Made by a program: the position numbers and the translations under genes. The notes below the pieces were generated by a model that was not told where the DNA came from, did no database searches, and saw only the letters and a list, made by a program, of their open reading frames with translations. Shown piece after piece: positions 18,876 through 43,527 of a DNA stretch of 64,000 nt (its first letter is position 1; each line of letters starts with the position of its first letter). This DNA is from Roseovarius bejariae (GTDB lineage Bacteria; Pseudomonadota; Alphaproteobacteria; Rhodobacterales; Rhodobacteraceae): positions 1,803,501-1,867,500 of the forward strand of contig NZ_SZWE01000001.1 of assembly GCF_009669325.1 (NCBI RefSeq). The letters are read 5' to 3'.

Positions 18876-19685
18876 TTATAGGTTGGCGATCTCGCGATTG
18901 TAACGGCGCAACAGCAGGAGGCCGGCGGCAAAGGTGACAAGGGCAACAGCATAAACGTAAAGGGGCGAAATATAGTCGCCGACATAGGTGTTGAAGATTC
19001 CGCGGCGTACTTCGCCTACAACATGAACCAGCGGGTTCCACATCAGCCAACCTTGGTAAGGTTCGGGCACGGAATCGACCAGGAACAGTACCCCGGAAAT
19101 AATGAAGAGCGGCCGGGTTACCACGGCCCAAGTCCTTTCCCACACCGGGAAAAGCGACAGCAAATAGCAGTTCAGGGTTCCAATCCCCAAAGCCAGAACA
19201 AAGGCCATGAAGAACCCATGCGCCAAGGCCACCGGATCAAACAGAATATCAACACCCGAGAACCAGATGATCGCCCCGAATACGATGCCGGCCACCATGA
19301 TTTGTGTGATGCTGTTGATCAACAAACGTGCGGTCAACGCATCCAGAAAGGTGACACCGGGATAGAACATCAGTGCTTTGGAGAACCGGAGCGATACCGA
19401 GACTTTCTGACTGATATCATTATAGGCCATGAACGGAAGAAAGCCGCTGGCATAGAAAAGTGGAAAGTTGGTACCAAGCGGCGGGCTGCGCAACATCAAC
19501 GAAAAGATCATCGTTAACAAAAGAATACCTGCCGCTGGCTCTAGAATGGCCCAGACATAGCCCAATGCCGAGCGGCCATAGGTCGTTGACATCTCGCGCA
19601 ACATCAACGCCGAAATCGTCCTTAGGGTCGCCTGACGCCTAGGGGGTTGTGCTGGCGGCAATGGAGCACTGATATCCGATGGCAT
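18876..19685 (-). CDS. kpsM: Capsule polysaccharide ABC exporter, permease subunit (KpsM-like)
   Basis: 269 residues of an ABC-2 type permease with about six hydrophobic segments. The amphipathic start RTISALMLREMSTTYGRSALGYVWAILEPAAG is the hallmark of KpsM/Wzm polysaccharide export permeases. It would form the inner-membrane channel with two KpsT-like ATPases. The ATG at 19685 gives the family length; an in-frame start at 19775 would run into the divergent kpsE start. It is convergent with the RTX gene (34-base gap) and divergent from kpsE-kpsT, so the exporter genes are split over two transcripts, which is less usual than a single operon. Confidence 0.85.
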   Translation of the reverse strand: MPSDISAPLPPAQPPRRQATLRTISALMLREMSTTYGRSALGYVWAILEPAAGILLLTMIFSLMLRSPPLGTNFPLFYASGFLPFMAYNDISQKVSVSLRFSKALMFYPGVTFLDALTARLLINSITQIMVAGIVFGAIIWFSGVDILFDPVALAHGFFMAFVLALGIGTLNCYLLSLFPVWERTWAVVTRPLFIISGVLFLVDSVPEPYQGWLMWNPLVHVVGEVRRGIFNTYVGDYISPLYVYAVALVTFAAGLLLLRRYNREIANL

Positions 19686-19763
19686 GTCTGGTGTCTGGCC
19701 GAAAGTTTGACTAATATTGGCGCTGAGTAGCCGATTTCCACGTATTAAACAACGAGTTCCCTT

Positions 19764-20942
19764 TTGGAAAAGCAACAGCCGAAATCGTCAGACCCTGAAC
19801 CCAAGGGGTCGGACGGGCCCGCCTTCGCGCCACCAGCCAGACTTGCACGGACCAAGACACGCCATGTCATTCTGCTACTCAGCTTCATACTCTGGGTGCT
19901 GGTACCCACCAGCGGGGTTGCGGTATATCTTTATACTGTCGCCAAGGATCAATATGCCAGCCATGTCGGGTTTTCCGTCCGTCGGGAAGAAGTCGGATCG
20001 GCAATGGAGCTATTGGGGGGGATCTCGGCGCTATCGGGGTCGTCTTCGACGGATACGGACATTCTGTATGAATTTATCCGTAGTCGGCAAATGGTGCGTC
20101 TGGTGGATGATCGTTTGGATCTTCAAAGCATCTACACCGTGAATGGCGATCCCTATTTCAGCCTTGGCACGGATGCCAGGATCGAGGCCCTTGTCGAATA
20201 CTGGCAACGGGTGGTCAGCGTCTATTATGACAATTCCAGCGGGCTGATCGAAGTTCGTGCCCTAGCCTTCGATCCAAAGGATGCCCACGCGATCACACAG
20301 GTCGTTTTCGACGAAAGCAGCCGCATGATCAATGAATTGTCGGCCATCGCGAGGGAAGATACCACGCGATATGCCCGCAAGGAACTTGATCAGGCCATTG
20401 ACCGGCTGAAGACAACCCGTAGCAAACTGACCAAGTTCCAGAACCGGACGCGCATTGTTGATCCTACGGCGGACCTCCAGGGTCAGATGGGCCTGCTGAA
20501 TTCATTGCAGCAACAACTGGCCACCGGGAAAATCGAGCTTGAACAGCTCTTGGGCAGCACGACGGTGACCGACCCGCGGGTCAAGGCCCTGCGCAAGAAG
20601 ATCGCCGCGATCGAAAAGCTGATTGATCAGGAACGATCCTCGTTCAGTAGCTCCGAGACCGGATCGGATGCATTTTCACAGCTTTTTGCCCAGTTTCAGG
20701 AATTGCAGGTCAACCTTGAGTTCGCCGAGAAAAGCTATCTCTCCGCGCAAGCCGCTTATGACGTGGCTCAGGCCGAAGCGGTACGCAAGTCCCGGTATCT
20801 GGCAACCTATATAAAGCCGACGCTGGCCGAAACGGCGGAGTATCCGCGCCGTCTCGAGTTCGTGCTGTTGACCTTGGGGGCGTTGGTTCTGTCTTGGTCG
20901 ATCTTGGTGATGATCTATTACTCACTGCGGGACCGGCGATGA
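19764..20942 (+). CDS. kpsE: Capsule polysaccharide export inner-membrane protein (KpsE-like polysaccharide co-polymerase)
   Basis: 392 residues: a proline-rich cytoplasmic tail, a first membrane helix at about 35-57 (HVILLLSFILWVLVPTSGVA), a long periplasmic part with coiled-coil stretches (about 200-345) and a second membrane helix at about 365-386 followed by a short basic tail. This is the topology of KpsE/Wzc-type adaptors without a kinase domain. KpsE links the ABC exporter to the outer-membrane pore. The likely start is TTG 19764; the first downstream ATG lies beyond the membrane helix. The stop overlaps kpsT (ATGA). Confidence 0.85.
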   Translation: MEKQQPKSSDPEPKGSDGPAFAPPARLARTKTRHVILLLSFILWVLVPTSGVAVYLYTVAKDQYASHVGFSVRREEVGSAMELLGGISALSGSSSTDTDILYEFIRSRQMVRLVDDRLDLQSIYTVNGDPYFSLGTDARIEALVEYWQRVVSVYYDNSSGLIEVRALAFDPKDAHAITQVVFDESSRMINELSAIAREDTTRYARKELDQAIDRLKTTRSKLTKFQNRTRIVDPTADLQGQMGLLNSLQQQLATGKIELEQLLGSTTVTDPRVKALRKKIAAIEKLIDQERSSFSSSETGSDAFSQLFAQFQELQVNLEFAEKSYLSAQAAYDVAQAEAVRKSRYLATYIKPTLAETAEYPRRLEFVLLTLGALVLSWSILVMIYYSLRDRR

Positions 20943-21619
20943 TCGAGCTGCGTAATGTCTGCAAGACATTTGTGTTGAACGGGCGCTCCAAGACTGTTGC
21001 CGACCGGATCAGCGTAACCTTCCCGCATCATACAGCCGTTGGCGTGCTCGGCCGGAACGGCGCCGGAAAGACGACCATGCTCAAGATGCTGGCCGGTTCA
21101 ATGGAACCGGACTCAGGTGAGGTGAAGGTGCATGGATCCATCTCTTGGCCGGTGGGATTTGCCGGCTCGTTTCACCCGGATCTGACCGGGTTGCAAAATA
21201 CCCGGTTCATCGCCCGTGTTTACGGGGTGGATACGGATGAACTTGCCGATTTTGTTGCTGATTTCTCGGAGCTCAGGGAACATTTCTATTTGCCGGTTCG
21301 AAGCTATTCTTCTGGCATGAAATCGCGTTTGGCTTTCGGCGTCTCCATGGGAATCAAGTTTGATACCTACCTTGTGGATGAAGTGACAGCGGTCGGTGAC
21401 GCCTCGTTCAAACAAAAAAGCGAAGCGTTATTTCGGGCACGGATGAACGAAAGCTCCGCGGTGATGGTGACACATGCCTTGGGCCAGGTAGAGCGGCTTT
21501 GTGATCATGTCGCGGTGCTGGAGGGCGGGCAGTTGCATTACTTCACAGATGTCATGGAAGGCATCGCTTTTCATCAAGAAAACATGCACCGCGCCCCTCC
21601 GGAAACCGGGGTTCGATAG
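20939..21619 (+). CDS. kpsT: Capsule polysaccharide ABC exporter, ATP-binding subunit (KpsT-like)
   Basis: 226 residues. Walker A GRNGAGKT is at residues 38-45. The signature loop is degenerate but recognisable as KpsT-type (YSSGMKSRLAFGVSM), and Walker B TYLVDEVTAVGDASF follows. KpsT subfamily ATPases drive export of finished capsule chains. The start at 20939 is in a four-base overlap with kpsE; an upstream in-frame start at 20894 would add unrelated residues. The gene is followed, convergently, by a sulfotransferase gene 15 bases away. Confidence 0.9.
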   Translation: MIELRNVCKTFVLNGRSKTVADRISVTFPHHTAVGVLGRNGAGKTTMLKMLAGSMEPDSGEVKVHGSISWPVGFAGSFHPDLTGLQNTRFIARVYGVDTDELADFVADFSELREHFYLPVRSYSSGMKSRLAFGVSMGIKFDTYLVDEVTAVGDASFKQKSEALFRARMNESSAVMVTHALGQVERLCDHVAVLEGGQLHYFTDVMEGIAFHQENMHRAPPETGVR

Positions 21620-21634
21620 TCCTGTTCGATAAGG

Positions 21635-22465
21635 TTATAATGGCCGGGATACATCCAGCCGGTTATCGAAGCCGAATAATTCATGAAGCTTCTTGTTTCG
21701 ATCAAGGAACAAAGCCTCGATCCAGCGGTCTCGTTCCTGGGTGCGTCCCGCATCAGGCTCATCAACCTTGTGAAACGCCGACCGGAACATCTCTTTTAAT
21801 TCCGGAGCCGGGATTTCATGATTGGCCAAGGCTGCTGCAAGAGCTTCGCAATCACTCACTCTCAGTGATCGGTTCGTTTGGGTCGCCGGGACTGTCCAGT
21901 TCATGTCAGAGGGCAGGTCAAGCTGCGACTCGATCACCGGACGAATGTCGCGATGACTGGCCAAAACCAAGGAGTTTTCAGTCAAATCACTCCAAGCCTT
22001 GAGCCAACCGGCAACCGGCATATCCTGTGATCGCTTGACGGCAAATTCTTCGAAATTGCGTCCGTCATAGGCACGGCGGGCAGCGCTGAATTGGTGGAAC
22101 CGCTGCTTCATGAACTGGGAATAATCGCCATAGATGAACTGGCTGAACGGGCGCAGGAAAACCACGGCCTTCAACTTGATACCCTGTGAGCGTGACAGTT
22201 GCGCCAGTGACTTCCCGCGGGGCGGTTGCGAAAAAAGGTCTTCATGGCTCAGGACGACCGTGTACGCATCATTGGCAAACATGGCATTGAGCCCTGCTTC
22301 GTTCAGCTTGGCAATTTCGGCGGCGTTTCCGGGGTGCCCGCCCTCATTATGGGGATACTCGATACCTTGGACCCTGAGTTTATCTCGGTTGTTCAGCATA
22401 ACGCGCTGCAAATAGGTGGAGCCACACTTGGGGGAACCGATATGAAGAAGGATTTGTCGTGTCAT
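21635..22465 (-). CDS. Sulfotransferase-family protein
   Basis: 276 residues. The PAPS-binding 5'-phosphosulfate loop is at the N terminus (LLHIGSPKCGSTYLQ, residues 6-20), and a second motif VVFLRPFSQFIYGDY near residue 105 corresponds to the 3'-phosphate-binding region. The enzyme would move sulfate from PAPS to a sugar hydroxyl in the cytoplasm. Its start overlaps the stop of the glycosyltransferase gene upstream by four bases, so ugd, the glycosyltransferase and this gene look like one minus-strand operon. The acceptor is unknown; a capsule repeat unit is the natural guess. Confidence 0.75.
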   Translation of the reverse strand: MTRQILLHIGSPKCGSTYLQRVMLNNRDKLRVQGIEYPHNEGGHPGNAAEIAKLNEAGLNAMFANDAYTVVLSHEDLFSQPPRGKSLAQLSRSQGIKLKAVVFLRPFSQFIYGDYSQFMKQRFHQFSAARRAYDGRNFEEFAVKRSQDMPVAGWLKAWSDLTENSLVLASHRDIRPVIESQLDLPSDMNWTVPATQTNRSLRVSDCEALAAALANHEIPAPELKEMFRSAFHKVDEPDAGRTQERDRWIEALFLDRNKKLHELFGFDNRLDVSRPL

Positions 22466-24864
22466 GACATTTTCTTTCCATAGGACGCGACACCGGGTGT
22501 TGCACCAAGTTGCTCATGAAGACGGTCAAGCATCTTGTCCAACGGGTCACCTAACAGGGTCAGGTCGATCCGGCGGTCGGCATCGCATACGGGCGGCATA
22601 TTCCAAGCCCGCAACAATGCCTCGGCCAAGGCCGGGCCAGTGGGGGCGCTTGACAAGATGGCGGGGCTGAGTGTGGCCAGATCCTTGCCACCAAAACGGT
22701 TGGTAACAACGCGCACCCCCGAAGCCGCCATTTCAATAGGCGGATGGCTGGGGTGTGGAGAATACATCAAGGTCAATCCCAAGTCGGTCCCAAGGAGGTA
22801 AGGCGGATAATCATCCCACGCCAGTTTGCCCATGCTTTCCAGAACGACACCACCGGGTAGCTTCACCGGATCATGCCGCAGGCCGATAGAGACCGGGGCA
22901 ATGTCATCCGGCCCCAAGCCGCAGTCTTGGATAAACAGGCCCAGTGCTTCGATGGCGGTGGCAAACATATTCCGCGGCACTTCGGGCCGACCATACAATG
23001 CCAGCCGACGCGCCCCACTTTCAGAAGGTACGGGATTGCGTGGCGCATCCGCATATCGGGCAATGTCGATCGAGGGGTGGAATGCCAGCGCACCCGCCGT
23101 GGCAAACCCGAACCCCTGCGTCGCGAAATGATCGCGCAGAAGCGTTGTATTGAAAATCGGTTCGAATCCCAATTCATACGAGGCCATGGCATCGGCAAAC
23201 TCTGGCCCCCAAGGGTAAAAATTGGGTTCGAAATCCTGTATCAGATACCAAAACCGTGTCTCGTTCAGGTCGTACTCATCAATCAAATGGCGGGCGATGT
23301 GGGCACTCCACCACGCGGTTGCCAGAATGCGGTCATCGGGATTGAGGGTAAGGCCACGACCCAGCACACCGCATTGCAATTCGATGCGGTTGGCGGCACC
23401 GCTTTCGATGGCCTCGGGTGCCAATCGCCGAGTCACGAACAGCCGTGATGCGGCGGGGTTCACCAATGGCATATCCGTGGCAATGAAGCGTACCCGGCGG
23501 CCCCGTGCGGCAAGGCCCAGACCAATATCCAGTGCCGTCGCAATACCAGCGAAGATTTCCGTCGGGTTCAGGGTCGGCACAAGGATGATGATCGCGGCAT
23601 CGGTTTCAGGCGTCACGACCGGTTCCCAAGAGGGCATTTTCCGCGTGTCGATCAGGCTTTTGTAATCTTGCGGTTGCTTCGTTCCGCCGCCAATCGCACC
23701 CGTGATATCGGATTTTTTCGGCGGCACCCCCGGAGACAAGCCGTAAAGCCGGTTATCGAAGTCATCGAGGGCTTTGGGCAGCCGCGAATAAAAGGTATCG
23801 CGCAGGGTCCAGACCAGACGTCCGGCATTGACCAAGGCAAAGCCAGCAGCGATCCGGGAAAGCCGGGCATGACCTGTAAACAGCAGCCGCGCCGCGTCCA
23901 GTAGATGGGGCCCCGCCCCAAGACGGTGTCGCAGGTAGGGGCGCAATGATCCTGTTCGGGCGCTATCGACAGGTATCCCGCCATTCGCCATGGTCTCTGC
24001 CATACGGTTGTGGACAGATATTCCCAGATAGCGCGCCAGCGCATAAGGCCCTGCCTCGCGGCGCATCCATGACAGGCGTTCTTCACGACTACGCCGACGC
24101 AACCACCGACGCGCGGAGCGGTCGACGGCACCGATGGCATTCTTTTCGTGTTGACGGTAATCGACCAAGGCTTCCTGTATCAGATGCACACCCGGTCCGG
24201 GAAGCGCTTCGGCAATCAGGCCCAACCAAAGATCATGGTAGAAGTGGACACCGTTTTGCTGCGGGAAGGGCAATGCCGTTCGCAATAACCCCACCTGCAT
24301 CAGTGTCGTCATCCCGGTGATGTTGTTCCGATAGAGCAGCCCACGCAGCCCCGGCGCGCGGTGTCTTCGCTCGTATCTGAACATCGAAGGATGAAGCTCG
24401 GTGCCGGAGTCATCTATGAGTCGGGCATCGGAATGCACCAGCAACGCACCGGTTCGCCGAATTTCGGCACATCCACGCGAAAGGCGCTGTGGATGCCACA
24501 GATCGTCTTGATCACTCATGGCGATCAACGGTTCTGGGCCGTCCGCTGCCTGTTTCTCACTTATTGTGAGAGCCTCTGTCAGCCCGGCCTCAAAGGCTCG
24601 TACCGCGTCAAGCTGACCGCCCGGGTTCAGGACATGCACATCAACACCGGCACCGGCGGCAGTATCGCGCAACAGGGTTTCAGAGGTCCCGTCTGCGATC
24701 ACGGCAATCAGCGTAAGCGGACCGATGTCGGTTTGCTCGGCTATGGATTTGATCTGTGTCGCCAGGTGCGCAGGGTCAGGCCGGAAAACCGCCATCACCA
24801 CCAGGATTGGCTGTGCATCCCGTGTCACGATGGGCCGGTCCGGCGAATGTGACTCAGAGGTCAT
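22462..24864 (-). CDS. Two-domain glycosyltransferase: GT2 plus WsaF-like rhamnosyltransferase domain
   Basis: 800 residues. The N-terminal part (about 15-260) is a GT2 enzyme with ILVVMAVFRP at the fold start and the metal site IAMSDQDDLWHPQRL. The C-terminal part (about 430-790) is a GT-B enzyme of the WsaF type, with FWYLIQDFEPNFYPWG, LALYGRPEVPRNMF and SPHPSHPPIEMAASGVRVVTN. WsaF-type enzymes are rhamnosyltransferases, in line with the dTDP-rhamnose operon at 40-43.5 kb. The start at 24864 overlaps the ugd stop by 11 bases; a longer frame would run deep into ugd. The fusion suggests addition of two sugars in sequence by one polypeptide. Confidence 0.82.
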   Translation of the reverse strand: MTSESHSPDRPIVTRDAQPILVVMAVFRPDPAHLATQIKSIAEQTDIGPLTLIAVIADGTSETLLRDTAAGAGVDVHVLNPGGQLDAVRAFEAGLTEALTISEKQAADGPEPLIAMSDQDDLWHPQRLSRGCAEIRRTGALLVHSDARLIDDSGTELHPSMFRYERRHRAPGLRGLLYRNNITGMTTLMQVGLLRTALPFPQQNGVHFYHDLWLGLIAEALPGPGVHLIQEALVDYRQHEKNAIGAVDRSARRWLRRRSREERLSWMRREAGPYALARYLGISVHNRMAETMANGGIPVDSARTGSLRPYLRHRLGAGPHLLDAARLLFTGHARLSRIAAGFALVNAGRLVWTLRDTFYSRLPKALDDFDNRLYGLSPGVPPKKSDITGAIGGGTKQPQDYKSLIDTRKMPSWEPVVTPETDAAIIILVPTLNPTEIFAGIATALDIGLGLAARGRRVRFIATDMPLVNPAASRLFVTRRLAPEAIESGAANRIELQCGVLGRGLTLNPDDRILATAWWSAHIARHLIDEYDLNETRFWYLIQDFEPNFYPWGPEFADAMASYELGFEPIFNTTLLRDHFATQGFGFATAGALAFHPSIDIARYADAPRNPVPSESGARRLALYGRPEVPRNMFATAIEALGLFIQDCGLGPDDIAPVSIGLRHDPVKLPGGVVLESMGKLAWDDYPPYLLGTDLGLTLMYSPHPSHPPIEMAASGVRVVTNRFGGKDLATLSPAILSSAPTGPALAEALLRAWNMPPVCDADRRIDLTLLGDPLDKMLDRLHEQLGATPGVASYGKKMS

Positions 24865-26185
24865 CTTTTGCGGAATATCCGGAACGTCCGATACTTTCAT
24901 AGGCAGCGAATCCAGCCTGCTTGGCATCGGCGACTGTGTAGACATTACGAAGATCCGCCATCCGCGGAACACTCATGATTTCGGCGATACGGCCCAGATC
25001 CAACGCACGGAATTCATTCCACTCGGTCAGGATGACCAGAAGATCGGCACCGCCTGCTGCATCATAGGCATCGTCACACCATGTGACCCCGGGCAAAAGC
25101 TTCTCACCTTCATGACGGCCTTGCGGGTCCGCAACCTGAACCCGCGCACCGCCACCCACGAGGGCAGGTACAATGGTAAGCGACGGCGCATCGCGCATGT
25201 CGTCGGTATTCGGTTTGAAGGTCACACCCAGCACGGCCACGGTTTTGCCATTGAAGCTTCCGTCGCAAAGATCGAGAAGTTTATCGATCATTCGACGTTT
25301 GACCTTGTCGTTCACCTCGATCACGGTCTCGGTAATGAGCATCGGAACACTGTGATCCTGACCAATGCGAGCAAGTGCATTCGTGTCCTTTGGAAAGCAC
25401 GAGCCGCCATAACCGGGGCCAGCGTGCAGGAACTTGTTGCCAATACGCCCATCAAGACCCATGCCTTGTGCCACTTTTTTGACATCGGCGCCGGTGCGCT
25501 CACAAAGTGCCGCAATCTCGTTGATAAAGGTGATCTTGGTCGCCAGAAACGCGTTGGCAGCATACTTGATCATCTCGGCGCTTTCCAGATCGGTCGAGAT
25601 GATGGGAAAGTCGCGCAGGTAGAGCGGGCGATAGATCTCGGCCATGACATCGGCAGCACGATCGGTCTCGACCCCCACAACGACGCGATCGGGCTTCATG
25701 AAATCGTCGATCGCGGCACCTTCGCGCAAGAACTCGGGGTTCGAGGCTACGTCGAAATCCAAATCAGGATTGGCATTTTGCACGACCTCCTTGACCTGAC
25801 GGTTGGTCCCGACGGGCACGGTGGATTTGGTGACAATCACCATATAATCCTTTGCCGCACGGGCGATTTCCTCGGCGGCCGCCATGACGTAACTCAGATC
25901 AGCATGACCGTCACCGCGCCGCGTCGGTGTACCCACGGCAATGAACACCGCATCGACGCCATCGATGGCCTGTGCCAGATCATTGGTAAAGCTCAGGTGC
26001 CCGATGTCGACGTTCTTGGCCATGAGCCGATCCAGACCCGGCTCGAATATCGGAACCTCACCGCGTTCAAGCATCGCGATCTTGTCCAGGTCTTTGTCGA
26101 CGCAAGTCACATCATGACCGAAATCCGAGAAGCACACCCCGGATACAAGACCCACATAACCGGTTCCAATCATTGCGATTTTCAT
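24854..26185 (-). CDS. ugd: UDP-glucose 6-dehydrogenase
   Basis: 443 residues, normal length. The NAD-binding start MKIAMIGTGYVGLVSGVCFS, the central signature and the catalytic cysteine motif GYGGSCFPKDTNAL (about residue 260) are all present, as is the late GVTFKPNTDDMRDAPSL. It makes UDP-glucuronate from UDP-glucose with two NAD, supplying an acidic sugar or its derivatives for the polysaccharide. It is the first gene of a minus-strand operon and is divergent from a GT2 gene, with a 227-base gap that must hold both promoters; I could not fix these. Confidence 0.95.
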   Translation of the reverse strand: MKIAMIGTGYVGLVSGVCFSDFGHDVTCVDKDLDKIAMLERGEVPIFEPGLDRLMAKNVDIGHLSFTNDLAQAIDGVDAVFIAVGTPTRRGDGHADLSYVMAAAEEIARAAKDYMVIVTKSTVPVGTNRQVKEVVQNANPDLDFDVASNPEFLREGAAIDDFMKPDRVVVGVETDRAADVMAEIYRPLYLRDFPIISTDLESAEMIKYAANAFLATKITFINEIAALCERTGADVKKVAQGMGLDGRIGNKFLHAGPGYGGSCFPKDTNALARIGQDHSVPMLITETVIEVNDKVKRRMIDKLLDLCDGSFNGKTVAVLGVTFKPNTDDMRDAPSLTIVPALVGGGARVQVADPQGRHEGEKLLPGVTWCDDAYDAAGGADLLVILTEWNEFRALDLGRIAEIMSVPRMADLRNVYTVADAKQAGFAAYESIGRSGYSAKDDL

Positions 26186-33470: not shown

Positions 33471-33517
33471 ACCGACTTTCCCAATAACTGAAGTACAAAT
33501 ACAAGCCTGAGTTTGAA

Positions 33518-36397
33518 ATGAACAACAAGTCACCAGAACGTCAGATATCGAATAGCCCACTATTTGATCGCACTTGGTATCTAGCAACCTATCAGGATGT
33601 GGAGCTTTCAGGGATCGATCCGGTACGCCATTACCTTCACTATGGTGCGAAACTAGGTCGGGATCCGGGGCCCTATTTCAGCACTACATTTTATCTCAAA
33701 ATGAACCCCGACGTGGCGCAAGCTGGAGTCAATCCACTACTGCATTACGAGCGTTCAGGCCGGCTCGAGCGGCGCCGATATCATCCGTCTCAAGATTTAG
33801 AGGTAATATCTGACAAGCCTCTGACAAAAAAGCGCCCAGAAGTTGATGTGGTTATCCCTGTTTACAACGCCCTCTCTGATGTACAGTCCTGCCTCGCTTC
33901 GCTGACTTGCGCAGAGACACGTTTTCAATTGCGGGTGCAGGTGGTCAATGACGGCTCTGACGCCACCACCACTGCTTGGTTACGCCGTGCGGTGAACCTG
34001 CTGGCGGGTCCACACATATCATTTGAACTGCACGAGCACGAAAGCAACTGTGGTTATACAGTGGCGGTTAATACAGGATTACGCGCATCAAGGGCTGATT
34101 ACGTTGTTACACTCAACAGTGATACCATTGTCACCTCCGGTTGGCTTGACGGATTGGTACGCTGCCTTGAAAGCGCGCCCGATATTGGAATCGTCGGACC
34201 ACTATCGAACGCCGCCACTTGGCAGAATGTGCCAGAGCTTTATGATGAGACTGGTAGGCATGCGATCAATATCCTACCCAAAGGCACGACACCTGAGCAA
34301 ATTGCGCAGTTGGTGCGCAGAGTTAGTATAAAGTGCTACCCACGAACGACTTTCGTCAACGGTTTTTGCTTTTTGATCGCCCGGACAGTGTTAGATGCAG
34401 TGGGCTACATGGACGAGGAAGCCTTCCCGACGGGTTACGGAGAAGAAAACGATTTCTGCATCCGAGCAATGGATGCGAAATTCGAGCTTGCCTATGCCGA
34501 CGATGTTTACGTGTATCACGCCAAATCCAAAAGTTTCGGCTCAGAACGACGCGTCGCGCTTTCCAAAGCTGGCGGTGAGGCACTGCGCCGCAAGCATGGC
34601 ACGAATAAGATCGCTGACCTAGTCGACAGGGTAAATCAAACTGAAAAGATGGACGCAGTGCGTGATCGATTACGGTCGGCAATGAAAGACACCGCTAACT
34701 CCGTTGGCGCGATCGTCACACCTGAGGAAATGCAGCTGCTACCACCAGCAATCCATGCACCTAAAGGCTACGTGGTGACACCCAGTATTGGAGGACCGAT
34801 GCTTAAATTGCCCTTCCATAACGAGTCTGGGCGAGTGCCAGAGCTTGATTTGGGTATCCACCTGCATCTGCACTATGTTGATCTGGCCGAGGAATTCACG
34901 AACTATTTGCGCCACGTACCGGTTCCATTTCACCTCTATGTCTCGGTACCCCTTGACAGCGACGTGAAGGAAATCGAGGAACTATTTACCAAAGTGCTGC
35001 CGAAGGCAAAAATTCGAATTGAAGCGTTTGAGAACCGCGGTCGCGATATCGGACCGTTCCTTGCTGGATTCGGCTCGATAATCTCGAAACACGACTATAT
35101 CTGCCACATCCATTCCAAGCGAAGCCCACACAATTTTGCCAAGAACGATTGGCGGTTACAACTAATGACCAACCTCATGGGCTCACCGTCCGTAGTTGGG
35201 GAGGTCTTGAGGCTTTTTGACCAGAATCCCGACTTGGGGATCGTTTTCCCGGAATATCATTGGTCTCTGGCCAATCAAATATCGTGGGGATCCAACTATG
35301 CAATTTGCACCGAACTGGCGCACCTTCTCGAGATCGAAATTAGCCCTGTGGTGATGGCACCGTTTCCTGCCGGCTCAATGTTCTGGGCTCGTCGGGCTGC
35401 CCTTGCACCTCTCTTTGACCTCGGTTTGTCATTCGAAGACTTTCCTAGTGAAGGCAATCAAGTCGACGGAACACTAGCTCACGCAATTGAACGATTGTTA
35501 GGTAATATCGTTGCAGCGACCGGTTACAAACTGCAACAATTGTCCACCGCAAAACCATACGATTTGCAGAGCTATTACACGGTTGCTTGGCCTTATCCGG
35601 CGAAGCCAGCCAACGAGCTGAGTAAAGTCGCAGAAACCTATCGAACCGAAAGAAAAAAAGTCCCGGCAAAGGTGGGGCTTCTATGCGCCAATGCTGGTGG
35701 GTATGATGCTACAGTAATGCATGAATATCTAGACCCGGCGATTGATTATCATTTGGTGACGGATTTTCCAGCTCCCAATTGTGGTTTTTGGATTCAACAT
35801 GACATGGCCAAAATTGGCAACCCGACCGGGCGGGCACGTGCTGTAAAGACTGATCCATTACCCTATATCGGAAGCTACGATATTGGTGTTTGGATTGATG
35901 CCAATGTTATGATTCGTGGCACATTGGAACAGTATTTCAAGATAGTTGAAGCAAATCCCGACGTTCCGATATTTGGTATTCCGCACCCTCAAAGAAACTG
36001 CATCTATGATGAGGCACAGGCCGTGATCGAGCACAAAAAGGCAGACTCTGATAAGGTTCGTGCGCAGATGGCAGTCTATCAAGCGGACGGGTATCCCAAG
36101 CGGCATGGGCTAATCGAAACTAATCTCCTAGTTTATAATCTAAAGCATCCTCGCATAGCGGAGATTCTAACAGCTTGGCGCGCCGAGGTAAACGAACGCA
36201 CCCACCGCGATCAGTTGAGTCTGAATTATGTCTTGTGGAAGCTTGGTTTGCAGTGGATGCCGTTGATGGGCGAAGGGCGCTGCCTGCGCACGAACAATGA
36301 TTTCGCCTATATCGGACATGGTCGCAACGCAGGGTATTCAACTCCGATACTGCCACCTCACACCGTAAAACCCCGTAATCCGACCAAGGCAGCATAA
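33518..36397 (+). CDS. Three-domain glycosyltransferase: GT2, RgpF-like and DUF616-like modules
   Basis: 959 residues. Residues 15-95 hold two units of the pattern W/FYLxxYxDV…HYLxYG (FDRTWYLATYQDV and STTFYLKMNPDV) common at the N terminus of polysaccharide enzymes. A GT2 domain runs from about 108 (VDVVIPVYNAL) to 340, with VTLNSDT and the GYGEENDF motif. An RgpF-type rhamnan-synthesis domain spans about 440-700 (LHLHYVDLAEEF, ENRGRDIGPFLAGF, HIHSKRSPH). A DUF616-like glycosyltransferase module closes the protein from about 718 (YDIGVWIDANVMI, HPQRNCIYDEA, GLIETNLLVYN). This combination suggests stepwise assembly of a rhamnan-like oligosaccharide on one polypeptide. Domain names are from motif memory; the architecture itself is clear. 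Confidence 0.8.
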   Translation: MNNKSPERQISNSPLFDRTWYLATYQDVELSGIDPVRHYLHYGAKLGRDPGPYFSTTFYLKMNPDVAQAGVNPLLHYERSGRLERRRYHPSQDLEVISDKPLTKKRPEVDVVIPVYNALSDVQSCLASLTCAETRFQLRVQVVNDGSDATTTAWLRRAVNLLAGPHISFELHEHESNCGYTVAVNTGLRASRADYVVTLNSDTIVTSGWLDGLVRCLESAPDIGIVGPLSNAATWQNVPELYDETGRHAINILPKGTTPEQIAQLVRRVSIKCYPRTTFVNGFCFLIARTVLDAVGYMDEEAFPTGYGEENDFCIRAMDAKFELAYADDVYVYHAKSKSFGSERRVALSKAGGEALRRKHGTNKIADLVDRVNQTEKMDAVRDRLRSAMKDTANSVGAIVTPEEMQLLPPAIHAPKGYVVTPSIGGPMLKLPFHNESGRVPELDLGIHLHLHYVDLAEEFTNYLRHVPVPFHLYVSVPLDSDVKEIEELFTKVLPKAKIRIEAFENRGRDIGPFLAGFGSIISKHDYICHIHSKRSPHNFAKNDWRLQLMTNLMGSPSVVGEVLRLFDQNPDLGIVFPEYHWSLANQISWGSNYAICTELAHLLEIEISPVVMAPFPAGSMFWARRAALAPLFDLGLSFEDFPSEGNQVDGTLAHAIERLLGNIVAATGYKLQQLSTAKPYDLQSYYTVAWPYPAKPANELSKVAETYRTERKKVPAKVGLLCANAGGYDATVMHEYLDPAIDYHLVTDFPAPNCGFWIQHDMAKIGNPTGRARAVKTDPLPYIGSYDIGVWIDANVMIRGTLEQYFKIVEANPDVPIFGIPHPQRNCIYDEAQAVIEHKKADSDKVRAQMAVYQADGYPKRHGLIETNLLVYNLKHPRIAEILTAWRAEVNERTHRDQLSLNYVLWKLGLQWMPLMGEGRCLRTNNDFAYIGHGRNAGYSTPILPPHTVKPRNPTKAA

Positions 36398-36399
36398 AT

Positions 36400-37587
36400 A
36401 TGGCACACCGCGAAGGACTAATGGACCTCGTTACTACAACGACAGGTGATATTGAGGCCAACTTCCGAGCTATTGAAGAGGGGCGGAAACGAGTGATCAA
36501 GCAGCCTCAGGTGATCACTTGGTTTCTACCAATTGTAACCCATGCGCTAAAGGGAGGTGTTCGAACCGTATTCGCCTTTTCTGAATATATGTCAGTCAAA
36601 TATGGCACGTTAAACGTCTTTGTGGTCTATGCTTATAACGGAGTTGATTTCGATTCTGCGTCACTTTCAAATTCATTGCGCGATCATTTCCCAAATCTCA
36701 AATTCGTGATACGCAAGTTTCTACATGGAAAGGACCGTGTCGAAGACCTTCCACATTCCGATATCTCGGTTTGTACGCTGTGGACCACAGCGTATATCAT
36801 GCTACGCTACAATCAAACCGCTCGGAAATTTTATTTCATGCAGGATTTTGAACCGATGTTCTATGCTGGTGGCGATCTGTACATGATGATCGAACAGACT
36901 TACCGGCTGGGATATTCCTGCATTGCCAATACCCCTGGTGTCGGCAACAAATATCGCGCCTATAGTTCTGACGTAGTCAGTTTTCTGCCAGGCATCGACG
37001 GCAGTGTGTTTTATGCTGATCCCGAGAAGAGTGATCGGATCAACGCTGACGGGATGTGGCAGATTGTGTTCTACGGACGGCCCGGAAATGCTCGGAACGG
37101 TTTTTTTCTTGGAGCAGAAACCCTTAAGTCGGTTAAGGACCGGCTTGGTAACAAAGTACGTATCATCTCCGTAGGCGCGGACTGGGCTCCGGCAGAATTC
37201 GGGCTTGAGGGGGTTGTCGAAAATCTAGGCTTGCTCAAGCGTATTGAGGAGGTAGCCGATCTTTATCGCAAATCAGATCTAGGGCTGGTGTTTATGGCCA
37301 CACCGCACCCGTCATACCAACCATTGGAATATATGGCCTGCGGCTGTGTCGTGGCCACCAATCGCAACGAATCTAACAACTGGCTCTTAAATGCCAATAA
37401 TTCGCTACTGCTAGATCCAATCCCAAGTGTTGCAGCAGACTGCATAGTTAGACTACTGCAATCACCCGATAAGCGCCGCCGCCTAATCGAAAATGGTATC
37501 GAAACCGTCAAGGAGCTTAATTGGAGTACCGCTTTCGAAGTGATTGAGACGCGGATGATTTGGAGTGCTCCCTTGGCCGACTCATAA
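36400..37587 (+). CDS. WsaF-family glycosyltransferase (rhamnosyltransferase-like)
   Basis: 395 residues, GT-B fold. The motifs FYFMQDFEPMFYAGGDLYMM (about residue 145), WQIVFYGRPGNARNGF and ATPHPSYQPLEYMACGCVVATN parallel the C-terminal half of the protein at 22462-24864, so the locus holds two WsaF-type enzymes. The first ATG is 36400; ATG 36421 seven codons on, with AAGGA close by, is an alternative start. It follows the three-domain glycosyltransferase after only two bases. WsaF-type enzymes use dTDP-rhamnose, which fits the nearby rml operon. Confidence 0.82.
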   Translation: MAHREGLMDLVTTTTGDIEANFRAIEEGRKRVIKQPQVITWFLPIVTHALKGGVRTVFAFSEYMSVKYGTLNVFVVYAYNGVDFDSASLSNSLRDHFPNLKFVIRKFLHGKDRVEDLPHSDISVCTLWTTAYIMLRYNQTARKFYFMQDFEPMFYAGGDLYMMIEQTYRLGYSCIANTPGVGNKYRAYSSDVVSFLPGIDGSVFYADPEKSDRINADGMWQIVFYGRPGNARNGFFLGAETLKSVKDRLGNKVRIISVGADWAPAEFGLEGVVENLGLLKRIEEVADLYRKSDLGLVFMATPHPSYQPLEYMACGCVVATNRNESNNWLLNANNSLLLDPIPSVAADCIVRLLQSPDKRRRLIENGIETVKELNWSTAFEVIETRMIWSAPLADS

Positions 37588-37646
37588 GCGCTTTGGAAAA
37601 TACATCGTGCCAAACAAACCTAAGAAATGCGACAAGACATAAGCTT

Positions 37647-39542
37647 ATGACTGCTACCCCTAATACAAAAAAAAATAGCCCCGTGAACGCTAAGACAAAG
37701 TCCCGTACCAAAACAAAAGAACATCCTCAAACAAAGCGCACCGCCTTGGTGGTTTTAGGGATGCATCGTTCTGGTACTTCGGCATTGGCCGGCACCTTGG
37801 GGATACTGGGCGCTGACCTTCCCAAAACCCCAATACCAGCCAGTGGCTCGAACGAGAAAGGCTATTTCGAGTCCCATGTAATCAACGACTTTCACGAAGA
37901 CCTTTTACATTCGGCCGCATCATGCTGGCAAGACTGGTTGGAAATGCCTCAAGGATGGTTTGAAAGTCCGCGAACCGACGAATTCCGTAAGCGAGCTGCT
38001 AGACTTGTCGAAGAAGAATTCGGTGAATCTTCTCTTTTTGTATTGAAAGATCCCCGATCGTGCCGTTTCGTTCAATTCTGGGAAGATGTACTGCTTGGAG
38101 AGGGCATAGAACCACACTACGTTCTGATAAACCGGAATCCACTTGAAGTTGCGGCTTCGCTTTTGAGGCGCGACTCGATTGACCAAAATTTGGGGCTACT
38201 AATTTGGTTACGGCATGTCCTCGATTCCGAGGCGATGAGCCGGGGACGCAAACGCGTTTTCGTGAACTACACCGGGCTGATCCGGAACTGGGCAAAGGTT
38301 GTTGAAACCATCCAGACAAATATTTCCTTGCGATTTCCCCGTATGTCTCTCGGCGTGGCCAATGAAGTTGAGAATTTTTTATCAGCCAAACTACAGCACC
38401 ATCAGGAAAGCACGGATGAAATCTTACAAAATCCTCTTATAACTAGCTGGGTTAAAGATACTTACGAAATAATGGAGCGCTGGGTTAAATTAGGCGAAGA
38501 TAGCGCAGATTTTACTTCACTTGATGCCATTCGTGAATCTTTGGGGTCAACTGCTCCGGCCTTTGCGCGACTTGTCCAAGCTGGTTCTGAGAGCGCCAGA
38601 CAAACAAGAGAGCTTTCTGATGAAAAAAATAAAATTTCAACTCAACTAGCTGATGCCAATACTAGTATCGCAGCATTGACAGAGAAGCTTGAGCAAGCGC
38701 AAAATGAGAATGATAAGGTAGAAGCCAAATATATAGAAGCGCATGATGTGCAATCGGAGATGGCTCAACAGTTGGCTGTCCGTCAACAAGAATTGGAATC
38801 TCGAAGCGACGAACTGAATTCCATAAAAGCAACTGTTAAAGATCTCCAAAAAAAGCTCACCGAAAGTGACGATGCTTTGCAGCAGAGTCGTCTTGAGGTT
38901 GAGGAAAGGGCCCGTGCATTGCAGGAGCTGAAAGAAGCTCGCTCTGCCATTCACGCTGCCCGGGACAAGGAGCTGCAGACTCGCAATGCCGAACTGACTT
39001 CTGCGGAGGCACGCGTTGAGCACCTTCAGCATAAGCTGGCAGAGATAAATAGCGCCTTACAGCAGCGTCGTCATGAGGCAGAAGAAAGCGCCCGTGCATT
39101 GCAGGAACTGAGAGAGGCTCGCTCTGCCGATCAGGCTGCTCACGAGTCTTTGATGACCACATTGCAAGATGAGTTAAAGCAAGCTCAAAACTCATATGAG
39201 AAGGCGGAGGCAGCGAGGGTTTCAGAGGAGAAGATTCACGGGAAGCAAACTGCAAAGCTTAGTGACAAAGTCACTAACCTAGAGTCACAACTGCAAACGA
39301 AGACACACGAGTTGGCCGAGATAACCCGAATGCTGTCGGGAGCAGAAGAGAAGTTGAAGATAGTGTTTGATGAGCAATTACAGGAGCGCAATCGTGTAGA
39401 AGAAATGGAGGCGGCACTCGACGAGGCACATGATCGAGCCGCGCGGGCAGAGCATAGTGTTATGGAGCTGACGGGTAGTACTTCTTGGAAATTGACGGCC
39501 CCCGTACGAACAGTCGCCATTCTCTTGAAGCGTATAACCTGA
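37647..39542 (+). CDS. Sulfotransferase fused to a long coiled-coil tail
   Basis: 631 residues. The sulfotransferase domain covers about 35-300, with the phosphosulfate loop VVLGMHRSGTSALAGTLGIL, FVLKDPRSCRFVQFW and YVLINRNPLEVAASLLRRD. Residues about 305-605 are heptad-rich coiled coil. Within it, residues 382-441 and 442-501 are an imperfect tandem duplication of exactly 60 residues (180 bases). The C terminus ends in STSWKLTAPVRTVAILLKR, a tail often found on glycosyltransferases and methyltransferases of large exopolysaccharide complexes. The ATG at 37647 begins just after the previous gene; a frame back to 37560 would overlap it. The coil may act as a ruler or a docking arm that fixes where sulfate is added, which is speculation. 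Confidence 0.78.
   Translation: MTATPNTKKNSPVNAKTKSRTKTKEHPQTKRTALVVLGMHRSGTSALAGTLGILGADLPKTPIPASGSNEKGYFESHVINDFHEDLLHSAASCWQDWLEMPQGWFESPRTDEFRKRAARLVEEEFGESSLFVLKDPRSCRFVQFWEDVLLGEGIEPHYVLINRNPLEVAASLLRRDSIDQNLGLLIWLRHVLDSEAMSRGRKRVFVNYTGLIRNWAKVVETIQTNISLRFPRMSLGVANEVENFLSAKLQHHQESTDEILQNPLITSWVKDTYEIMERWVKLGEDSADFTSLDAIRESLGSTAPAFARLVQAGSESARQTRELSDEKNKISTQLADANTSIAALTEKLEQAQNENDKVEAKYIEAHDVQSEMAQQLAVRQQELESRSDELNSIKATVKDLQKKLTESDDALQQSRLEVEERARALQELKEARSAIHAARDKELQTRNAELTSAEARVEHLQHKLAEINSALQQRRHEAEESARALQELREARSADQAAHESLMTTLQDELKQAQNSYEKAEAARVSEEKIHGKQTAKLSDKVTNLESQLQTKTHELAEITRMLSGAEEKLKIVFDEQLQERNRVEEMEAALDEAHDRAARAEHSVMELTGSTSWKLTAPVRTVAILLKRIT
38790..39149 (+). repeat. Tandem 180-bp duplication inside the coiled-coil gene
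   Basis: The two halves (38790-38969 and 38970-39149) align with a constant 180-base offset. For example the segment starting AGCAGAGTCGTCTTGAGG at 38881 matches AGCAGCGTCGTCATGAGG at 39061, and CCCGTGCATTGCAGGA is identical in both. Reading frame is kept, so the coil grew by 60 residues. Confidence 0.85.
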
Positions 39543-40145: not shown

Positions 40146-41021
40146 TCAGCCCTGCAACAGACTCTCAAGATACCGGCCATAGTCATTCTTGGCAAAAACC
40201 TTCGCGCGTTCTTCTAGCGCGTCACGGCTGATCCAGCCTTCCTGAAATGCAATCTCATCCGGGCTTCCTGATTGTTGGCCCTGACGCTTCTCAAGCGTAC
40301 GAACGAAATTACCCGCATCGAGCAGCGAACCATGTGTGCCGGTGTCCAGCCAGGCATAGCCGCGGCCCATGCGCTGCACCTCCAACAGCCCATCCTCCAG
40401 GTACATCTCCAGCAAGGTGGTGATCTCAAGCTCGCCGCGCTGTGACGGCGTTACTTTCTTTGCCCGATCTGGCGCAGTTCCATCGAGGAAATAAAGCCCT
40501 GTCACCGCATAGTTCGAGGGCGGCACCTCGGGCTTCTCGATAATCTCCGAGGCACGCCCGTCTGCATCGAAGGCCACCACACCATAGCGTTCCGGGTCGG
40601 AGACCCGATACCCAAAGACCGTACCGCCGGTTTGCTTGAGACTGGCGGTGCGCAGCACTTCAGAAAGCCCATGCCCGTAAAAGATGTTGTCACCCAGGAC
40701 CAACGCAGAAGGGGCCCCGGCCAGGAAATCTTCGGCCAACAAGTAGGCCTGCGCCAGACCGTCCGGGCTGGGCTGAACGATATAGCTTAATTCGAGCCCC
40801 CATTGATGACCGTCACCAAGGATACGCTTGAACTGATCCTGATCCTGCGGCGTGGTGATGATCGCAATCTCGCGAATCCCGGCGAGCATCAGGACCGACA
40901 GCGGATAATAGATCATCGGCTTGTCATAGATCGGCAAAAGCTGTTTCGACACACCCATCGTTATCGGATACAGCCGTGTGCCCGATCCACCAGCCAGAAT
41001 GATACCTTTTCTGTTACTCAT
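40146..41021 (-). CDS. rmlA: Glucose-1-phosphate thymidylyltransferase
   Basis: 291 residues, normal length. The signature [30 protein letters not shown] covers residues 5-34, and [24 protein letters not shown] and ITTLLEMYL follow in the family order. RmlA makes dTDP-glucose, the first step to dTDP-L-rhamnose. It is the last gene of the minus-strand operon rmlC-rmlB-rmlD-rmlA and overlaps rmlD by four bases. Confidence 0.97.
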
Positions 41022-41881
41022 GTACTCAGTGCTCCCAGATCACGTAAAATATCCTTCAACCCGGCCCGCCAATCCGGACGCGGGAGGCCAAAGGTGGCTT
41101 CCGTCTGACTATTGTCCAAGCGGCTGTTCAAAGGCCGTTTTGCCGGGGTCGGGTAATCGGACGAAGGGATATCGGTTACGGCGCAATCGGTATCTGACAA
41201 ACGGAAAATCTCCCGTGCGAAATCGGCCCAGCTGACATCCGGTCCACCCGACAGGTGGTAGATCCCGCTTTTGTCCGGGTTTGCCGCCAACTGACCAGCG
41301 GCGGCAAGGCATGTGTCGGCGATATCCGCCGCGCATGTCGGTCCGCCCACTTGATCGGCCACGATGGTCAGGGCGTCACGCTCTGCGCCAAGCCGCAACA
41401 TGGTTTTAACAAAGTTACCACCATGTGATGACACCACCCAAGAGGTGCGAAAGATCGCATACCGGCCACCAGCTGCGCGCACCTCTTCCTCACCCTTGAG
41501 CTTGCTTCGTCCATAAGCGCCCAAGGGGCTGGTGGGATGATCGGGCACAAAGGGTGTTTGCCCGGACCCGTCAAAAACGTAATCGGTCGAAATATGCACG
41601 AATGGCAGGTCTCGCTCGGCACACGCACGGGCGATCGCCCCCGGCGTGGTGCCATTGACCACGCGTGCGATGTCCTCCTCTTCTTCCGCCTTGTCGACGG
41701 CTGTGTAGGCCACGGCATTGATCACGGCATCCGCGTCGGTTTCGCGCACCAAACGCACACAAGATTCCGGGTCCGCAAAATCGGCCTCGTCACGGCCGCA
41801 AACATCCAGCGTGATATCGCCCGCCCTGCGTGCAAGCTCTTGCGCCACCTGCCCGGTTTTTCCGAACACCAAAACTTTCAT
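41018..41881 (-). CDS. rmlD: dTDP-4-dehydrorhamnose reductase
   Basis: 287 residues. NAD(P)-binding glycine motif [15 protein letters not shown] at the N terminus; SDR-type catalytic segment ISTDYVFDG … [14 protein letters not shown] with the tyrosine and lysine in place. RmlD carries out the last step, giving dTDP-L-rhamnose. Four-base overlaps with rmlB upstream and rmlA downstream show tight coupling. Confidence 0.96.
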
Positions 41882-42957
41882 GCTGTCCCCGCCTTCACGG
41901 CCTTGTCGGCGTCGGCCCCGATACGTTCCCCGACCCCGTCACGGTCTTGCAGGGCCCGCCACCAGGTTTCGTTCTCAAGATACCAGCGCACCGTCTTGCG
42001 CAAACCCTGTTCCACCGTGACCGAAGGACGCCAGCCAAGTTCAGACGCGATACGAGTGGGATCAATGGCATAGCGGGCATCATGGCCGGGCCGGTCGGCG
42101 ACAAACTCGATTTGTGTTTCGTATTTCTCGCCATCGGCGCGCGGGCGCATATCGTCCAGAATGGCACAAAGCATCTTGACCAGTTCGAGGTTGGTCAGTT
42201 CGTTTTCGCCACCGATATTATAGGAGCGCCCCAATTCACCCTTCTGCAACACGGTCAGAAGAGCATCGGCGTGATCTTCCACGTAAAGCCAATCACGAAT
42301 GTTATCTCCCCGCCCGTAAATTGGGAGGGGCTTGCCCGAGAGGGCATTCAGGATCGTCACCGGCACCAGCTTCTCGGGGAAATGGAAAGGGCCATAGTTG
42401 TTGGAACAATTGGTCATTACAACCGGCAGACCGTAGGTTTCAAACCACGCCCGCACCAGATGATCGCTGGCCGCCTTTGAGGCAGAATAGGGACTGCGTG
42501 GGTCATAGGGCGTGTCTTCGGTGAACTGCACCGAGGGGTCCGCGGGAAGCGATCCGAACACCTCGTCGGTCGAGATATGATGGAACCGGAAATGCGCTGG
42601 CTTGCCCTGCGCGACCCAGAATTTCCGCGCCGCTTCAAGCATATTGTATGTGCCCGTGATATTGGTCTCGATGAAATCGCCCGGCCCGTCGATCGACCTG
42701 TCGACATGGCTCTCGGCGGCAAGATGCATCACCGCATCGGGGGTGTGTTCGGCAAACACCCGGTCTATCTCGGCCCGGTTGCGGATATTGACCTGCTCAA
42801 ACACATATCCCGGTGTGTTCGAGACGCTTTCGACATTGGCCAAACAGCCCGCATAGGTCAGCGCATCAAGGTTGATGACTTGATGACCGTCATGAATGGC
42901 CTGCCGCACTACAGCTGAGCCAATGAACCCCGCACCACCGGTTACCAGAAGCTTCAT
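41878..42957 (-). CDS. rmlB: dTDP-glucose 4,6-dehydratase
   Basis: 359 residues. NAD-binding start [20 protein letters not shown], the [15 protein letters not shown] segment, [11 protein letters not shown] and the catalytic [15 protein letters not shown] are diagnostic for RmlB. It oxidises and dehydrates dTDP-glucose. It follows rmlC by three bases. Confidence 0.97.
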
Positions 42958-42960
42958 GGC

Positions 42961-43527
42961 CTATCCTTCCCAAACAAAGGGGCTGTCGAAATCCTTGAAA
43001 AACGGTGCCTTTGCATCTTTATCGCTAAGTGCTGCACTGTCCACATCGAAGCCCCAGTCAATTCCGATCTGCGGGCAATCGAACCGAACCGCGCCGTCGC
43101 ACTCGGGCGCGTAATAGTCCGAACATTTATAAACGATCTCCGTATCGGGCGCACGGGTAACAAATCCGTGCAAGAACCCCTTGGGCACCAGCAATTGCCG
43201 ACCGTTCTCAAAGCTCAGCTCGTAACCCACCCATTTCCCATAGGTGGGCGATCCCTTGCGGATATCCACCGCCACATCGAACAACGCACCACGCCCACAA
43301 CGCACCAACTTGTCCTGAGCATGTGGGGGCGCCTGAAAATGCAAGCCTCGCACGGTACCGGGCTGTACCGACAAAGAGTGATTGTCCTGAACAAAATCGA
43401 TCGTCACCCCATGCTCGGCCATGCGTGATCGGTTGTAACTTTCCGAGAAAAACCCGCGCGAGTCACCAAACCGGCGGGGCGTGATCAATAAAACCCCCGG
43501 TAAAGTTGTTTTTTCAACCTGCAACAT
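42961..43527 (-). CDS. rmlC: dTDP-4-dehydrorhamnose 3,5-epimerase
   Basis: 188 residues of a cupin-fold epimerase. GDSRGFFSESYN, DNHSLSVQPGTVRGLHFQ, KLVRCGRGALFDVAVDIRKG and PKGFLHGFVT carry the expected histidine and aspartate residues. The ATG at 43527 is preferred because GGAG stands nine bases upstream; an ATG at 43548 adds seven residues without a Shine-Dalgarno. First gene of the rml operon, divergent from the DUF2793 gene; the 190-base gap must carry both promoters. Confidence 0.95.
   Translation of the reverse strand: MLQVEKTTLPGVLLITPRRFGDSRGFFSESYNRSRMAEHGVTIDFVQDNHSLSVQPGTVRGLHFQAPPHAQDKLVRCGRGALFDVAVDIRKGSPTYGKWVGYELSFENGRQLLVPKGFLHGFVTRAPDTEIVYKCSDYYAPECDGAVRFDCPQIGIDWGFDVDSAALSDKDAKAPFFKDFDSPFVWEG

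Follow-up and report, generated by a model that had tools for sequence, protein, structure and literature searches.

In Roseovarius bejariae, the gene for a tail fiber of the DUF2793 family, a gene transfer agent (GTA) type of fiber, lies at the edge of a locus for an exported, probably sulfated capsule, and, as the recurrence of this pairing in relatives suggests, this capsule is most likely the receptor of the cell's own GTA. Locus and fiber gene are located in a stretch of 64,000 nucleotides (G000:C1:1803501-1867500), hereafter the window, of a 3.5-Mb genome in 3 contigs. The order of the genes is KpsM / KpsE-KpsT / ST1-WsaF1-Ugd / GT2-GT4-KdsB-KdsA / ST2 / small open reading frame (ORF)-ST3-RgpF-WsaF2-ST4 / RmlA-D-B-C / DUF2793 fiber, where ST1 to ST4 are four sulfotransferase-like proteins and GT2 and GT4 are glycosyltransferases (Table 1). 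The explanation as a whole, namely that a capsule locus with sulfation capacity adjoins the gene for the receptor-binding protein of the cell's own GTA, with this capsule as its receptor, is considered probable, and its parts are weighed separately below.

The DUF2793 Tail Fiber and Its Linkage to Capsule Genes

The fiber gene starts 190 bp from the start of rmlC and is divergent from it. It is the only DUF2793 copy found in the genome and lies on C1, while the GTA cluster, recognized by PF13547 and a 1332-aa megatron-type frame, is on C2, and the fiber gene is thus located outside the head-tail cluster. Among the PHROG families, it matches tail fibers with 63 and 44 bits, outscored by PHROGs of unknown function, and its best PDB match is chain S of 8gtc (6.7e-11; entry label ribonuclease III), which we take to be a marine siphophage tail structure. 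According to excerpts of the published account, DUF2793 is the family of Rcc00171, the tail fiber of the Rhodobacter capsulatus GTA (RcGTA), whose gene also lies outside the main GTA cluster (PMC10883770). The fiber of the window shares with Rcc00171 the DUF2793 base domain and a gene outside the main cluster, but differs from it in the variable tip and in the site of its gene at a capsule locus.

The nearest precedent for the pairing is found in R. capsulatus itself, where, as stated in parts of the source, the capsule genes rcc01081-01086 adjoin, and are co-regulated with, the RcGTA head-spike genes, and the capsule is bound by the RcGTA tail fiber (PMC10218006). In both organisms, capsule genes thus adjoin a gene for a GTA receptor-binding protein; however, this neighbor is a DUF2793 tail fiber of the rcc00171 family here and a head spike there, and the exporter is KpsMTE, accompanied by sulfotransferases, here and Wza/Wzb/Wzc there (PMC10218006, in part). 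Among the literature matches listed, judged by titles and the starts of abstracts, neither a GTA tail-fiber gene in capsule loci nor such a sulfated capsule locus in roseobacters is described.

The pairing recurs within the genus, where 40 of 48 genomes have a DUF2793 match. Leaving out four weak matches of G037, 49 stretches were analyzed for the 53 matches (<20 kb near contig ends), and fiber genes without a megatron match within their stretch were termed stand-alone. On this definition, 38 genomes have one stand-alone fiber gene each, whereas 11 fiber genes have a megatron homolog within their stretch and are prophage-like. A stand-alone fiber and a close KpsE relative are both present in 27 genomes, and in 14 of these the two genes lie <23 kb apart, against a chance expectation of about 1% each by our own estimate. 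Rml genes (≥50% identity) lie within 10 kb in 14/38 stand-alone fiber regions and in 0/20 control regions, and among the genes ≤10 kb from the fiber gene, 180 of 511 (35%) are similar to genes that lie in ST1 stretches outside the genus, compared with 19 of 352 (5%) in 20 same-genus control regions. Beyond the genus, RmlC is located <200 bp from the fiber gene in Sinirhodobacter, Sedimentimonas, and two Roseivivax. The arrangements of fiber and capsule genes vary among genomes, hence the pairing is not one frozen gene order.

The fiber itself is built from a constant base and interchangeable tips. The base (about residues 1-209) is alike in all, with 701 of 703 pairs above 0.25 of the self score, whereas only 74/703 pairs of tips reach this level, and single-linkage clustering divides the tips into 12 groups of up to 18 members. 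The tip of the window is matched at the >0.25 level only by genome G003 (R. faecimaris-type), with weaker likeness in L073, L078, and L082 (33-39% over the C-terminal part). On a 76-kb contig (L096, L132), G003 carries ST1-WsaF1-KpsTEM, rml and fiber genes together with ST3-like and ST4-like genes. Among the related genomes of the genus, for which p-values overstate independence, tip similarity follows the similarity of polysaccharide-like neighbors, with rml genes excluded and the fiber base controlled for (partial r 0.239, p 0.0002).

A Promoter Motif Upstream of Stand-Alone Fiber Genes

A 20-base motif with the consensus GCAGCGCACGGnnCnnTnAG was trained on 30 upstream regions of stand-alone fiber genes; seven of the 38 regions, chosen by hand, were dropped as near-duplicates and, with the own genome, eight were held out. 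The site before the fiber gene of the window is the top motif score of the 64 kb on both strands (control maximum 15.9, n=336). Scores of ≥10 bits are reached by 26/38 stand-alone fiber upstreams, 0/11 of the prophage type, and 13/335 controls, and two Roseivivax fiber genes outside the training set have the motif at -79 and -83 (14.5 and 14.7 bits), while it is absent at the fiber genes of Sinirhodobacter, Sedimentimonas, and Puniceibacterium (6.7, 6.7, and 5.3 bits).

The motif is also present, though often weak, in front of about half of the GTA clusters, for which 20 stretches were fetched, six without a g1 match were dropped and 15 located upstreams were scored. Scores exceed those of controls (p 0.0019), and the best site lies at -122 to -141 in 8/15 upstreams, two of these sites being identical. 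TTAA, which is given as part of the CtrA half-site in a passage of PMC6363796, is found near the motif at 10 of 26 fiber sites and 2 of 13 control sites; for the late RcGTA loci, the portion of the source consulted gives putative CtrA half-sites at 3/3 and putative GafA sites at 2/3 (PMC9638019).

The motif is nearly palindromic (window 43632-43657), and its reverse site, the second-best of the window (15.1 bits), points toward rmlC, which is why fiber and rhamnose genes might share control.

The Capsule Locus and Its Sulfotransferases

Every named part of the locus is an ORF at the coordinates of Table 1, with family matches far above chance in profile searches, and, as far as its sequence can tell, the locus is a real and well-equipped Kps-type capsule locus with sulfation capacity. 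The original prediction, made from the letters of the stretch and its ORFs, had proposed a locus for a Kdo (3-deoxy-D-manno-octulosonic acid)-linked, rhamnose-rich, probably sulfated capsule, and its inventory is borne out: a KpsM/KpsT exporter with a KpsE-type adaptor (PF01061, PF00005, and TIGR01010; NCBIfam scores below cut-offs), CMP-Kdo supply (both genes over cut-off), UDP-glucuronate supply through an Ugd-type dehydrogenase (probably UDP-glucose 6-dehydrogenase), the full dTDP-rhamnose pathway, with each of the four enzymes over its TIGR cut-off, five glycosyltransferase genes including WsaF and RgpF types, confirmed by domain matches, and the four sulfotransferase-like genes. The genome-wide search it had suggested for KpsC, KpsS, KpsD, and the synthesis of 3'-phosphoadenosine-5'-phosphosulfate (PAPS) brought up both sets. 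A KpsC-type protein (700 aa, four PF05159 stretches), an outer-membrane polysaccharide export (OPX) protein recognized by PF02563, and KpsS (211 bits, NCBIfam, below cut-off) are encoded together at C1:2.826-2.830 Mb, 1 Mb from the locus, PF05159 being present in two proteins, and PAPS would be supplied by a fused bifunctional sulfate adenylyltransferase/adenosine-5'-phosphosulfate kinase (1044 bits).

Group 2/3 ABC-dependent capsules of the Escherichia coli K1/K5 type use KpsMTE, KpsD, KpsC, and KpsS. The exporter, the KpsE adaptor, OPX, KpsC, KpsS and the CMP-Kdo genes are common to these systems and R. bejariae, which differs in its unlinked KpsC/KpsS/OPX genes, its single KdsA copy and its several sulfotransferases. 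A second capsule locus was considered as the true home of KpsC and KpsS and was rejected, as the sole other KpsE-like gene found shows 25% identity in a longer frame. With regard to exporter type, Kdo-anchoring machinery and sulfation capacity, the prediction of a Kdo-linked, probably sulfated capsule is well supported; it is weakened with regard to a Kdo supply of its own. The capsule locus harbors the only kdsA match of the genome, without a second, dedicated Kdo gene copy, and two proteins match PF04413, presumably the Kdo-transferase family of lipopolysaccharide (LPS), so that the Kdo supply is probably shared with LPS and the Kdo genes are unlikely to be capsule-dedicated. A dedicated second set of Kdo genes is not obligatory for Kdo-linked ABC-dependent capsules. 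For KdsB, the internal ATG at 28706 is the probable start, as the profile begins at residue 55 of the longest ORF (from 28544).

ST2 alone is itself recognized by a Pfam sulfotransferase family (PF13469). For ST1 and ST3, which are related to each other (hhalign 99.3%), fold and phosphosulfate loop are seen in the predicted structures, and for ST4 through relatives only (2849 among 7996 candidates scored), with PF13469 in several of the best 120, e.g., P0156 (50% identity). The predicted ST1 and ST3 structures match heparan-sulfate sulfotransferases best: apart from one bacterial sulfotransferase, the top 14 VIA rows of ST1 and the top 13 of ST3 consist of heparan-sulfate N- or 3-O-sulfotransferases, at an identity of only 9-15%. 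Outside the locus, PF13469 has five further matches, three of them over cut-off (G000:C1:1301231 and others; L156, L158-L161). A candidate sulfotransferase upstream of the PAPS synthase (L008 3325-4461) was discarded, since it has no Pfam match and its translation resembles a spurious frame.

WsaF is a rhamnosyltransferase. The WsaF_N and WsaF_C domains that family membership requires are present, and the locus shares domain families with both WsaF and RgpF; unlike WsaF, however, WsaF1 is a two-domain enzyme tied to a sulfotransferase. From the genes of the locus we infer that the chain holds a deoxy-sugar (probably rhamnose) and probably a uronate. For Ugd, the best equivalog is TuaD (523 bits, cut-off 700 not reached). 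The predicted attribute "rhamnose-rich" goes beyond this, resting on dTDP-rhamnose genes and on the family names WsaF and RgpF, which do not fix specificity.

The G+C content is 0.48-0.50 across the 31-39 kb block and 0.54-0.59 on both flanks, and because of this drop to about 0.49, the ST3-RgpF-WsaF2-ST4 segment (window 31000-39500) is probably acquired, or exchanged, cargo. No Rfam family was found in 15-47 kb at gathering scores. At the other end of the locus, an RTX (repeats-in-toxin) calcium-binding repeat protein gene (window 16304-18841) directly adjoins kpsM; an RTX-type protein is reportedly an RcGTA repressor.

Table 1. Features of the capsule locus and of the adjoining fiber gene (positions in the window).
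Feature	Position	Strand	Evidence or remark
KpsM-like ABC-2 permease	18876..19775	-	PF01061 39 bits; NCBIfam KpsM 78.5 bits (equivalog cut-off 300, not reached)
KpsE/CtrB/BexC-type inner-membrane export protein	19764..20942	+	TIGR01010 227.5 bits (cut-off 437.5, not reached)
KpsT-like ATPase	20894..21619	+	PF00005 53.5 bits; top NCBIfam teichoic acid and galactan exporters, below cut-off
ST1, PAPS-type sulfotransferase fold	21635..22465	-	predicted structure
WsaF1, two-domain glycosyltransferase	22462..24972	-	WsaF_N/WsaF_C behind weak N-terminal GT2 match (E 0.032)
Ugd-type nucleotide-sugar dehydrogenase, probably UDP-glucose 6-dehydrogenase	24854..26185	-	TIGR03026 450.6 bits, over cut-off
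GT2 glycosyltransferase	26341..27351	+	PF00535
GT4 glycosyltransferase	27302..28489	+	PF13692/PF00534
KdsB, CMP-Kdo synthetase	28706..29500	+	NF003950 334 bits, over cut-off
KdsA, Kdo-8-phosphate synthase	29497..30327	+	NF003543 410 bits, over cut-off
ST2, sulfotransferase	30394..31338	-	PF13469 52.3 bits
Small protein, 205 aa, no family	31810..32427	+	no Pfam or PHROG match; overlaps ST3 start
ST3, PAPS-type sulfotransferase fold	32424..33470	+	predicted structure
Multi-domain glycosyltransferase, GT2 + RgpF + TOD1/MUCI70	33518..36397	+	Pfam domain matches
WsaF-like glycosyltransferase (WsaF2)	36400..37587	+	PF22772, PF21374
ST4, sulfotransferase-like N-terminal domain and long coiled-coil-like tail	37560..39542	+	PF13469-carrying relatives
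RmlA	40146..41021	-	TIGR01207 458.6 bits, over cut-off
RmlD	41018..41881	-	TIGR01214 292.3 bits, over cut-off
RmlB	41878..42957	-	TIGR01181 477.3 bits, over cut-off
RmlC	42961..43548	-	TIGR01221 213.4 bits, over cut-off; ATG at 43527
Promoter motif of stand-alone fiber genes	43638..43657	+	19.1 bits; 80 bp before fiber start codon
DUF2793 tail-fiber gene	43718..44752	+	PF10983 95 bits

Distribution of the ST1-WsaF1 Module

Relatives of ST1 were scanned with two short peptide patterns only, so that the 26 loci of named records found are a lower bound; at least 24 are alphaproteobacterial (13 named genera and two unclassified bins) and two, in Oceanimonas, are distant. ST1-WsaF1 loci are not exceptional, as they occur in 13 named genera of the Rhodobacterales. 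WsaF1 directly adjoins ST1 in all 24 alphaproteobacterial loci, and a KpsE gene lies within the stretch in 18; of the remaining six, four end ≤2 kb from ST1 on the far side, and L040 and L043 have a glycosyltransferase there instead. In one protein, P0042, an ST1 match and a WsaF_C domain are joined. R. mucosus and Roseovarius sp. 217 share the locus type of the window, with ST1-WsaF1-KpsTEM.

Within the genus, 29 further loci have a close KpsE relative; ST1-WsaF1 is present in five and absent from the stretch in 23 (some stretches being short), and the remaining one, L128, is cut off just beyond KpsT. The five carriers and L128 make up the six loci whose KpsE is nearest to that of the window (58-64% identity), all others having ≤52%. 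Because the module goes with one exporter subtype, this points to a conserved portion of the chain as the substrate of ST1-WsaF1. A sulfotransferase-like frame of any kind is found in 8/29 KpsE stretches compared with 1/20 controls. In the ST1-type loci of the genus (L127-L132), an ST3-like gene is situated close to kpsM, on the opposite side, whereas ST3 of the window is placed elsewhere.

Proposed Mechanism and Alternative Explanations

The locus would build an ABC-exported, group 2/3-like KpsMTE capsule. KpsC and KpsS would initiate the chain on a lipid-borne Kdo linker, WsaF1, GT2, GT4, RgpF, and WsaF2 would assemble it, ST1 to ST4 would sulfate it from PAPS in the cytoplasm, and KpsMTE with the OPX protein would export the polymer. 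The DUF2793 gene is predicted to encode the receptor-binding tail fiber of the cell's own RcGTA-type GTA, and this capsule would be its receptor, receptor and receptor-binder then being inherited as one segment. More generally, the GTA fiber of Roseovarius and neighboring genera may be encoded in the cell's own capsule locus and transcribed from a GTA-type promoter, the type of capsule and the specificity of the particle may be exchanged together as a lock-and-key segment that restricts transfer to the same capsule type, and, as a second reading, ST1-WsaF1 may synthesize a conserved, sulfated portion of the polymer on which export by one KpsMTE subtype depends. As a set, these three proposals are tentative, with a chance somewhat short of even.

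Several observations weigh against the capsule as GTA receptor. In the genus, fiber and KpsE genes lie on separate contigs in 9/27 genomes, and in 4/27 they share a contig at a distance of 94-532 kb. The contrast between fiber neighborhoods and controls may be inflated somewhat, as the reference stretches were taken from the surroundings of ST1, flanking genes included, and 5/20 of them hold a fiber gene themselves. With regard to the promoter, half of the eight held-out fiber upstreams lack the motif (the other four score ≥10), the best site falls at -122 to -141 in only 8/15 GTA-cluster upstreams, only 4/15 of these reach 10 bits (1/15 on the wrong strand), and the own GTA cluster has a weak motif of 7.5 bits (control 90th percentile 7.3). 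Tip similarity follows other neighbors (partial r 0.304, p 0.0002) as strongly as polysaccharide ones; this comparison thus gives no evidence for specific co-evolution of tip and capsule, and the linkage could be due simply to common descent of the segment. An ordinary Kps capsule locus with sulfotransferases, to which the fiber gene is a chance or ancestral neighbor with no functional tie, would fit this equal tracking, the separation of fiber and exporter in 13/27 genus genomes, and the occurrence of ST1-WsaF1 loci in 13 named genera with a fiber gene in only 5/24 stretches (reach ≤10 kb each side). However, fiber genes are enriched in polysaccharide surroundings, in several arrangements and in other genera too, and we regard such a neighborhood without functional tie as rather unlikely.

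The nature of the polymer is subject to further doubts. KpsM, KpsE, KpsS, and the OPX protein are all under NCBIfam equivalog or subfamily cut-offs, and the KpsC-type protein has no NCBIfam match at 1e-20. The locus could make an O-antigen or a loose exopolysaccharide rather than a Kdo-lipid-anchored capsule, with KdsA/KdsB serving LPS only, which would agree with the sole kdsA copy, the PF04413 proteins, and the distance of 1 Mb to KpsC/KpsS/OPX. The KpsE-type adaptor in the exporter argues against this, as does the want of a better partner for KpsC, KpsS, and OPX, given the divergence of the other KpsE-like gene, and such a product appears improbable. A greater, if still minor, likelihood is given to the view that some of the four sulfotransferase-like proteins are inactive or act on a non-capsule substrate: ST4 carries a long coiled-coil-like tail, and the five further PF13469 matches elsewhere mean that PAPS has other users. 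The coupling of ST1 to WsaF1 and to one exporter subtype, and their fusion in P0042, speak against this view. The original prediction had placed the interest of the locus in a sulfated rhamnan-like capsule that mimics a green-algal polysaccharide or blocks phages. RmlABCD, the WsaF and RgpF families, and the four sulfotransferase-like genes would suit such a polymer, but family names do not fix rhamnose specificity, no result here bears on mimicry, and other bacteria also make sulfated rhamnose polymers, such as the spirulan of cyanobacteria, so that this idea has only a slim chance of being correct. The fiber gene, which that prediction overlooked, offers a biological role that is more tangible than mimicry, because it is the genome's only DUF2793 (GTA-type) tail-fiber gene and adjoins the locus.

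Implications

The Kps-type capsule is in itself of a known kind; the novelty lies in the GTA-type fiber gene at the edge of the capsule locus and in the recurrence of this pairing. If the capsule is indeed the receptor of the cell's own GTA, this would provide a functional reading for the module of sulfotransferase, WsaF, and exporter seen in many genera of the Rhodobacterales; the synthesis of the receptor and the fiber that binds it would be inherited as one segment, which would explain how GTA particles set free by dying cells are delivered to kin rather than to strangers.

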